This document shows, one piece after another, positions 61,184 to 63,039 of a stretch of DNA of 64,000 bases. This DNA comes from Thalassotalea sp. PP2-459 (GTDB lineage Bacteria > Pseudomonadota > Gammaproteobacteria > Enterobacterales > Alteromonadaceae), in contig NZ_MKQD01000033.1 of NCBI RefSeq assembly GCF_001913705.1, forward strand, positions 1 to 64,000, read 5' to 3'. The notes under the pieces were generated by a model. The model had not been told where the DNA came from. It ran no database searches and saw only the letters and a program-made list of their open reading frames with translations. Position 1 is the first letter of the stretch; the number at the start of each line of letters is the position of its first letter. The position numbers were made by a program, and so were the translations under genes.

Positions 61184-61210
61184 TAATGGCTGAATATAAG
61201 GGCTGTAATA

Positions 61211-61435
61211 ATGGCAATATTTTTAGTGACCTTTGGCTTTTTTCTACTGATAGTTGTAGCAATGGCTGTAGGCTATATTTTTCAGCAAAAGTCACTTGCA
61301 GGTAGTTGTGGGGGCCTGGGTACCCTAGGTATCGATAAAGCATGTGATTGTGATGATCCTTGTGAAAAACGTCAAGAGAAAGAGCGTAAAGCTGCTATCA
61401 AAGCAGAACATAAAATAGATATCAAAAATATATAA
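61211..61435 (+). CDS. nqrM: Na+-NQR maturation protein NqrM
   Basis: NqrM is a small membrane protein needed to insert the iron centre into NqrD/NqrE. The 74-residue protein has one membrane helix (~3-25) and the conserved cysteines Ser-Cys-Gly-Gly-Leu-Gly and Cys-Asp-Cys-Asp-Asp-Pro-Cys, which likely bind iron. It is 27 nt after apbE, preceded by AAGGG. Confidence 0.95.
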   Translation: MAIFLVTFGFFLLIVVAMAVGYIFQQKSLAGSCGGLGTLGIDKACDCDDPCEKRQEKERKAAIKAEHKIDIKNI

Positions 61436-61466
61436 AAATAGCGGCTGAAAGCCGCTATTTTTTTCC
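61434..61466 (+). terminator. Terminator after nqrM
   Basis: A perfect 13-bp stem (61434-61446 with 61450-61462), GAA loop and following T run, overlapping the nqrM stop codon. Confidence 0.9.
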
Positions 61467-61488
61467 TTTTAGTTTCATAACTCAATTC

Positions 61489-61802
61489 ATACCAATTCGC
61501 ATAAAGATTAAGTCAGTTCAGAGCGATGTCAGAGGTGGGAGAATAAACGAAACGTGTGCAGATATAGTTGTTTCTACATCAAACACGTTTTGCGCAATTA
61601 TCGCGCCTCTAACACGCTCCCAAAGGGCGAGTTTAAACGCTTCATAGCCTGTGTTGTTGATTTTGACAAGGACGCTACAAGAATGTAGCTTATTAGAGAA
61701 CGCAGGAGACGTTCTCCTGAATAACCATTCTCTGCAATCAACGCCGTGCCTCTAAAGCGTTTAATTCTCGCTGAATGACTGAATATTTATGCGAATTGGT
61801 AT
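61489..61802. mobile_element. MITE-like element with 17-bp terminal inverted repeats
   Basis: Exact 17-bp inverted repeats (ATACCAATTCGCATAAA at 61489-61505 and its complement at 61786-61802) bound a 314-bp segment with no full gene. The ends include a TA on both sides, which would suit a TA-targeting (IS630/mariner-like) enzyme. On the minus strand an open frame without a start codon (61598-61786) reads Leu-Ile-Ala-Glu-Asn-Gly-Tyr-Ser-Gly-Glu-Arg-Leu-Leu-Arg; it may be relic coding. A 7-bp inner hairpin lies at 61703-61719. No transposase is encoded. It fills most of the spacer between nqrM and dinB. Confidence 0.72.
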
Positions 61803-61868
61803 CATTTACGTGTCAACTGTTGAGCATGCTCCACTCCATAAGCTTGCGATAACCCATAAAATATGAAA

Positions 61869-61888
61869 TACTGTTTTTATATACAGTT
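61869..61888 (+). promoter_or_regulatory. LexA (SOS) box of dinB
   Basis: The sequence TACTGTTTTTATATACAGTT contains the canonical CTGT-N8-ACAG LexA site at 61871-61886, with an AT-rich centre. It lies 49 nt before the dinB start, overlapping the expected promoter, so dinB should be repressed by LexA and induced by DNA damage. Confidence 0.9.
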
Positions 61889-61935
61889 TATTTTGTTGGT
61901 TTGAGTCTCTCATTCGCTTTGAATATAAATGCCGT

Positions 61936-63039
61936 ATGACAAACGTAATTATGCCTAATGCAAAACGTAAAATAATCCATATAGATATGGATGCTTTTTA
62001 CGTGTCAGTTGAAATACGAGATAATCCTGAGCTGCAAGGTAAGCCAGTTGCCGTTGGCGGTCCTGGAAATACCAGAGGGGTTTTATCGACGTGTAATTAT
62101 ATTGCAAGAAAGTATGGCGTACGTTCAGCCATGGCAAATAGTGTTGCGTTAAGAAAATGCCCTGAATTATTAATAGTGCAGGGTAGAATGTCGGTGTATA
62201 AAGAAACAAGTTCAAGGCTTCATGAGATATTTCAACGCTATACATCAAAAATAGAACCATTATCACTCGATGAGGCCTATTTAGATGTAACTGACTGCCC
62301 ATTATTTTCCGGTTCTGCAACGTTAATCGCGCAAGATATCAGAAAAGTTATCTTTGATGAGTTACAGTTAACTGCCTCGGCTGGTATCGCGCCACTAAAG
62401 TTTCTTGCCAAAATAGCATCAGATCAACATAAACCCAATGGTCAATGTGTTATTGCGCCAGACAGCGTTATGGCGTTTATTGAAAGTATGCCACTGAATA
62501 AAATACCTGGTGTTGGAAAAGTCACGTTTAATAAACTTCAACAGCATGGCTTACATACGGGAGCGGATGTTAGGCAAAGCTCACAAACTGTTTTGATGAA
62601 AACATTCGGTAAATTAGGCGCTTCTTTATGGCAAAAATGTCATGGCATAGATAATAGAGCGGTAGAGGTTACCAGAGTGAGAAAATCAGTTGGTGTTGAA
62701 CACACGTTCTCTAAAGATAAAAATGAGCTTGATGAATTAACTGATTATATGTTGCAGTCATTAATACCCGAGTTATTAACACGTTCAAAATCATATACCG
62801 TTGAACGTGGGATCAGTAAGCTTGGTGTAAAAGTTAAGTTTAACGATTTTCATCAAACTACCAAAGAAATACAACATCAAGATATTGATTCAGCGTCATT
62901 TATATTATTACTAAAAGAAGCATTATCAAGAGGTGAAGGGAAACCTGTTAGATTGTTAGGGGTTCATATTGGTTTAAAAGATATTGAACCAAAGGTAAAT
63001 CATCAATATCAATTTGAATTAGCGTTGCCTATCAATTAA
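61936..63039 (+). CDS. dinB: DNA polymerase IV
   Basis: DinB is a Y-family polymerase that copies past bulky guanine lesions. The 367-residue protein has the catalytic motifs Ile-Asp-Met-Asp-Ala-Phe-Tyr near residue 16 and Ser-Leu-Asp-Glu-Ala-Tyr-Leu-Asp near 113, the steric-gate region beside the first, helix-hairpin-helix Pro-Gly-Val-Gly-Lys-Val near 192 and a little-finger domain. It is about 15 residues longer than E. coli DinB at the N-terminus; internal ATG 61951 is an alternative start. The C-terminus lacks an obvious E. coli-like beta-clamp tail (ends Ala-Leu-Pro-Ile-Asn). An SOS box lies upstream. Confidence 0.95.
   Translation: MTNVIMPNAKRKIIHIDMDAFYVSVEIRDNPELQGKPVAVGGPGNTRGVLSTCNYIARKYGVRSAMANSVALRKCPELLIVQGRMSVYKETSSRLHEIFQRYTSKIEPLSLDEAYLDVTDCPLFSGSATLIAQDIRKVIFDELQLTASAGIAPLKFLAKIASDQHKPNGQCVIAPDSVMAFIESMPLNKIPGVGKVTFNKLQQHGLHTGADVRQSSQTVLMKTFGKLGASLWQKCHGIDNRAVEVTRVRKSVGVEHTFSKDKNELDELTDYMLQSLIPELLTRSKSYTVERGISKLGVKVKFNDFHQTTKEIQHQDIDSASFILLLKEALSRGEGKPVRLLGVHIGLKDIEPKVNHQYQFELALPIN

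Follow-up and report, generated by a model that had tools for sequence, protein, structure and literature searches.

The 312-bp element that lies between nqrM and dinB in the window, the 64,000-nucleotide stretch of Thalassotalea sp. PP2-459 DNA analysed here, is a genuine MITE that has moved within the lifetime of the species. The reading that we favour, with a probability of roughly 0.86, is that it is a non-autonomous DNA transposon with TACCAA-N6-TAA ends which is moved in trans, can fold on itself and offers a landing pad to an insertion sequence (IS). Copy number, target duplication, empty sites, nesting, covariation and IS insertions were all observed directly. The element is short with terminal repeats, is flanked by a target duplication, has no transposase gene and occurs in multiple copies with matching empty sites.

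Results

The element and its surroundings

We judged the boundaries of the MITE proper (61490-61801, TACC...GGTA) by the target duplication. The perfect terminal inverted repeats claimed by the initial annotation are present, with the 17-base ends at 61489-61505 and 61786-61802 being identical in inverted orientation and forming part of a longer repeat of 32 bases with 88% complementarity. The "TA at both borders" described earlier is better read as a 3-bp duplication of the pattern T-N-A, here TCA on both sides. The element interrupts neither nqrM nor dinB, nor the nqrM hairpin, nor the box before dinB, and its neighbours had been named correctly: Pfam identifies ApbE, NqrM (PF04400) and an impB/mucB/samB DinB-type polymerase (PF00817). 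The CTGT-N8-ACAG sequence before dinB, a pattern with at least one match also in 53 of 100 shuffled windows, is what we take to be a LexA-type box. No sigma-70-like promoter was found in 61400-61940. The features are as follows.

61434-61462, plus strand: terminator-like hairpin 3' of nqrM, left of the MITE
61487-61489, no strand: left target duplication TCA, T-N-A pattern
61490-61801, plus strand: MITE, TACC...GGTA, based on the 3-bp duplication over 54 sites and on empty sites
61490-61521, plus strand: left terminal repeat of the TACCAA-N6-TAA type, forming a basal stem with 61771-61801
61523-61617, plus strand: hairpin arm 1, with compensatory changes in 13 of the 13 pairs of its main helix
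61619-61627, plus strand: CCCAAAGGG palindrome at the arm junction, the insertion site of an IS4-family element in eight MITE copies of G059, the copy at this locus included
61628-61770, plus strand: hairpin arm 2, holding the most conserved non-coding core of the family
61672-61718, plus strand: 47-bp module near the tip of arm 2, variably present among copies in the genus
61771-61801, minus strand: right terminal repeat, basal stem partner of 61490-61521
61802-61804, no strand: right target duplication TCA, T-N-A pattern
61871-61886, no strand: putative LexA-type box CTGT-N8-ACAG before dinB, intact and outside the MITE

The module of 47-48 bp (columns 231-278 of alignment A1, described below) is present or absent among subfamilies of a single genus, as if copies had exchanged it or had lost it repeatedly.

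Copy number, target duplication and empty sites

Our search for the end sequence in the draft genome of the strain itself (G000; 4.08 Mb, 85 contigs), a search that the initial annotation had proposed, revealed 61 exact 16-base ends and 76 with at most two mismatches, against 10 for a reversed control. BLAST of the same genome returned 68 matching stretches, a figure that counts fragments of single copies and end-to-end matches. Many G000 contigs terminate within a MITE copy, so that full copies are hidden in this draft. A second, complete genome of the same species (G059) gave 102 end matches against one for the control.

Sixty complete elements from this and related genomes provided 54 distinct sites, six having been set aside for ends too unlike or for a repeated site. 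The flanking 3-mers were equal at 47 of the 54 and were nearly always TTA or TAA; at the other seven an equal 3-mer was absent. Pairing left and right flanks at random (2000 permutations) gave a mean of 22.9 equal 3-mers and a maximum of 33.

Empty sites were sought through the flank ends of G000 copies (n = 68), 36 of which match known G059 loci, mostly copies common to both genomes. The remaining 32 were searched for in G059, where 13 places were read. Four of these are clean empty sites, with a single TNA where G000 has two around the element; two correspond to copies that are complete in G000 (L003 and L013, with two substitutions beside the L003 site) and two to copies whose halves lie on separate G000 contigs (C71/C18 and C75/C34). 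Three more places seem empty and are readable from one side only, three are unclean, with an end remnant or otherwise (C61/C70, L058 and L080), two are shared copies, and one gave no alignment. The claim that this is a mobile MITE is thus borne out by multiple copies, by the target duplication and by clean empty sites in the second genome of the species, and a lone copy with no empty site anywhere, the outcome named as speaking against it, is not what we found.

Nesting was also observed: in L108 a copy of subfamily 2 sits within a copy of subfamily 1 with TTA on both sides, and L110, L111 and L018 seem to have arisen later by recombination of such MITE-in-MITE nests. At the locus in the window, the element is present in both genomes of the species (G000 and G059). 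It is absent from the locus in all three of the other species of the genus that we examined (G001, G002 and G003), where the flanks have diverged and do not form a clean empty site. The sequences suggest that most insertion sites are intergenic; a stop-free frame of at least 200 codons runs across the joined flanks at 2 of 49 distinct sites, many of them with short flanks.

Copies also decay. G000 contains derivatives of at most 80 bp in which ends are fused to inner parts (L044, L062 and L064), apparently deletion products. Degradation by deletion is visible between G000 and G059 because the G059 copy L107, compared with C73/C50 of G000, is missing its right half and border, a loss that ran through a short word in common (TTTAAACG / TTAAACG).

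Searching with the consensus, we found relatives in 90 of the 246 genomes sampled and in 26 of 52 genera of the same bacterial family, the species itself included, and weak matches (E about 1e-4) in 2 of 24 genomes that belong to other families in the order. A strict scan for the core pattern in a collection of named genomes matched only a Thalassotalea marina record, and blastn at E 1e-5 against 72,556 plasmid and 50,697 phage records found no match.

Search for a transposase with matching ends

The initial annotation had also proposed matching the ends to a full insertion sequence, and no such match emerged in G059 or among the ends listed for relatives, in searches that would miss mismatched ends. 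In G059, pairs of ends 0.7-5 kb apart (best 100 of 102 ends) comprised only IS4-interrupted copies or ends of neighbouring copies, and all 50 of 50 ends of the complementary pattern gave the same outcome, with no transposon bearing such ends; one 4.3-kb interval contains ordinary genes. Among relatives, where ends were sought in 11 genomes and results come from the ends listed for G006, for G010, for most of G027 and, in G159, for the best 100 of 179, pairs 0.7-5 kb apart in G010, G027 and G159 enclosed no transposase. The intervals contain flagellar, transporter, oxidoreductase, RuvC, racemase and radical-SAM genes or small repeats. Over the searches as a whole, five of the longer intervals contain ordinary host genes. 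Two shorter pairs were rejected as partners, namely a 777-bp pair in G159 made of tandem near-identical repeats and a 545-bp pair in G010 made of two small repeats. A separate 163-bp repeat in G159 (L212, C1:53845-54007) has TACCAA-N6-TAA ends and T-W-A flanks around a different middle, and among the ends listed many G159 pairs show its spacing, as do G010 pairs at a similar spacing. The ends and flanks of L212 suggest that one kind of transposase serves several repeat families.

None of these searches yielded an autonomous element with the same ends, so movement of the MITE in trans is inferred. Its transposase would either have been lost, be encoded apart from such ends, have ends outside the searched patterns or lie beyond the listed ends. 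In the mechanism that we propose, a trans-acting transposase would make a 3-base staggered cut at T-N-A, mostly TTA or TAA, and insertion of the MITE would duplicate the three cut bases. The MITE, itself without a gene, can form a three-way hairpin from its complementary ends and two internal arms, and in this reading the 9-bp palindrome CCCNNNGGG at the junction is a favoured target, and so a landing pad, of an IS10-like element of the IS4 family.

Fold and covariation

The inner hairpin noted earlier is real, and the strand folds far beyond shuffled sequences: a single strand folded as RNA reaches -122.1 kcal/mol (z = -11.6) and folded as DNA has z = -10.5, with none of 100 shuffles as good in either case. 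We followed the pairing through two alignments. A1 comprises 27 of the 60 complete elements, from 10 genomes and 6 genera, with composites and most near-identical copies left out. A2 comprises 33 elements from 28 genomes and 14 genera, 12 of them shared with A1 and 21 remaining from 23 newly collected elements once one with weak ends and one near-duplicate had been removed; equal duplications earned end candidates a bonus when those 23 were collected, and their duplications are left uncounted.

In A1, pairing holds in 94.7% of cells, and both sides have changed in 41 of the 69 pairs, against 25.4 when columns were shuffled and 12-16 when the partner was slid along the sequence. The number of further pair types (79 against 74.8 in shuffles, reached by 56 of 500) is hardly above chance. 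Carrying the same structure over to A2, we found that 94.6% of cells pair and that 42 of 69 pairs have compensatory changes (shuffles 26.4, slid partner 16-21), with all five measures beating all 500 shuffles. Because the sequences are related, the shuffle counts cannot be read as probabilities; relatedness is retained in the control with a slid partner. Free structure prediction on A2 kept the arms and the basal stem, giving 81 pairs of which 48 had changed on both sides, and lacked the small CCC/GGG stem.

Conservation is uneven along the element. Conservation is 98.8% over the outer six bases of the ends, drops to 65.4% over the next six, and stands at about 90-92% in the core and about 72-75% in arm 1. 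The six-base spacers of left and right ends agree on average at 4.63 of 6 positions, against 2.85 when ends were reassigned, and none of 10,000 reassignments of the 19 distinct pairs matched as well.

The fold may be needed for movement, or it may be a by-product of how the arms mutate. A stronger version holds that the pairing itself is selected, with the folded strand or a cruciform being recognised or moved by a stand-alone transposase not itself flanked by such ends; we regard this as a possible but unlikely account.

We consider it improbable that the element owes its retention mainly to the fold of its transcript, as a structured RNA or regulatory unit, with its spread being secondary. 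The strong fold and covariation would suit such a role, as would the core, in which column identity is about 90% in paired and unpaired columns alike. G-U pairs are also somewhat commoner than A-C mismatches, but selection on one strand predicts G-U far above A-C, and the counts, for pairs chosen by a rule that favours G-U, were 59 G-T against 46 A-C in A1 and 73 against 48 in A2 with one constant pair left out. This near balance is compatible with pairing that is maintained on the DNA, whether by selection or by arm-to-arm copying during replication, and some RNA role alongside may exist. The location of copies, moreover, differs between strains. An Rfam search of 61200-62000 returned no family at the gathering score, so identity with a curated Rfam family was rejected; its 15 weak matches all lie at or adjoining the nqrM terminator and reach at most the first 29 bases of the element.

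The interior

The initial annotation had suggested that the interior could be a decayed transposase or a passenger, on the strength of a 63-codon open stretch. That stretch exists, but its length is ordinary: among 2000 single-base shuffles, 679 reach 63 codons, and in a separate set 362 of 1000 do so. A decayed insertion sequence, or a carrier of a decayed passenger gene, could draw on the longest stop-free run of the element (77 codons, minus strand) and on the 85-codon open run of many near-identical copies. However, 234 of the 2000 shuffles reach 77 codons and 120 reach 85, and the longest run in the 26 complete elements of other subfamilies is 42-61 codons in 21 and 68-82 in five. The most conserved core moreover holds single-base indels between subfamilies (CCCAAAGGG versus CCC-AAGGG), and the interior shows compensatory pair changes instead. 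A coding interior was rejected, its open runs being no longer than shuffles give, and we hold this origin to be very improbable.

An IS4-family element inserted in the MITE

In G059 the MITE copy at the locus of the window is split by a 1277-bp IS4-family element inserted at CCCAAAGGG, equivalent to window positions 61619-61627. The element has CTGACG ends and a 9-bp target duplication, CCCAAAGGG, and target duplications of about 9-12 bp are usual in the IS4 family. Its transposase matches NF033591 (transpos_IS4_2; 291 bits, cut-off 152) and PF01609, and YSKRMQIEQNFRDDK within it fits the signature Y-(2)-R-(3)-E-(6)-K given for IS4 (PMC2266710). Both the DDE transposase signature and the length of the duplication place it in this family.

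Eight of the 18 full IS copies in G059 lie at the exact same MITE site. Another nine are in a different intergenic repeat, which was identified not by alignment but by a fuzzy 15-base motif around CCCNNNGGG. The last copy is at CCCGAAGGT, with a row of tRNA genes about 170 bases away. The duplications are perfect in 16 of the 18, with middle bases differing in two. G000 has six IS fragments, each no more than 100 bases from the end of a contig, and two of these occupy the same MITE site; no copies were found in G001-G003. The nearest plasmid-borne relative, from Pseudoalteromonas, is 65% identical, with others among those listed near 40%; presumably the inserted IS and these relatives are IS10-like. 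The second repeat (G059 L121, L126-L128 and L131-L135) is also palindromic and intergenic, with a left part TTGAACCCNNNGGGC or near variants and, in some copies, ends like GTTATTCCA / TGGAATAAC; its motif TTGAACCCNNNGGG has no copy in the window.

Across G059 there are 244 CCCNNNGGG sites against 122 for the reversed pattern, a count that pools all contexts, so that a preference for the MITE or a hairpin is not separable from one for non-coding CCCNNNGGG. CCC/GGG (or CAC/GTG) pairing is possible in all 33 A2 rows, and exact CCCNNNGGG followed by CGA occurs in 17 of 27 A1 rows and 25 of 33 A2 rows, several others having two bases between. Because pairing extends to all rows and the exact sequence to only part of them, the palindrome is older than the IS and not kept for it. 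The presence of the IS inside eight G059 copies might suggest that it is what moves the MITE, but its ends (CTGACG) and duplication (9 against 3 bp) differ and the MITE family is present in G001-G003 where the IS was not found, which leaves that idea hardly credible.

Discussion

ERIC is a hairpin-forming intergenic repeat spread over related gammaproteobacteria; the MITE family is like it in all these respects and appears unlike it in length, ends and core. Prokaryotic MITEs, as set out in a review that also mentions ERIC, are short, with terminal inverted repeats, a target duplication, AT-rich intergenic sites and stable stem-loops, all of which apply here, including the size (PMC10969869). 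Unlike that general account, the inner part of the terminal repeat varies here while left-right pairing and a non-coding core are kept across genera, and no parent insertion sequence was found. A MITE serving as an IS target has a parallel in QMITE2 of Coxiella burnetii, which is a target of IS1111, with a GTAG palindrome recognised and a duplication of 7-9 bp (PMC10969869). In our case, by comparison, an IS4-family DDE element uses CCCNNNGGG and the MITE duplication is 3 bp. REP sequences are likewise described as intergenic palindromes that are IS hot spots (PMC1525189). The target here differs from REP as described there in being part of a 312-bp element that is itself mobile and has a 3-bp duplication of its own. 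IS231A, also of the IS4 family, inserts into GGG-N5-CCC in the ends of Tn4430, and shares with the present IS a G/C palindrome inside a different mobile element as its target; the spacing is 3 here against 5, and the target is a MITE and not a transposon end. IS231A is stated to show some insertion specificity (PMC2266710).

Going by titles and the openings of abstracts, with most subscription papers outside the scope, we recognised nothing in the literature as this MITE family, and no MITE study of these free-living marine bacteria turned up there. What is novel here is that the two ends vary in step with each other on either side of a non-coding core that is conserved, together with the IS landing pad. 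MITEs are commonly described as keeping their terminal repeats while the middle decays. In this family, by contrast, it is the six outermost bases and a non-coding core that persist, and the rest of the ends drifts in matched pairs. The mobility is layered, with MITE inserted in MITE and an IS inserted in the MITE at one exact base, in free-living marine bacteria.

The question of whether MITE hairpins are used or are a by-product becomes testable in this family by breaking and restoring single pairs. If the unlikely account in which the pairing itself is selected were true, the six-base spacer of the ends would be free to change provided that both ends change together. With the REP/RAYT arrangement as the comparison for a stand-alone transposase, the family would then be a DDE-type counterpart of that arrangement, long kept across a bacterial family.
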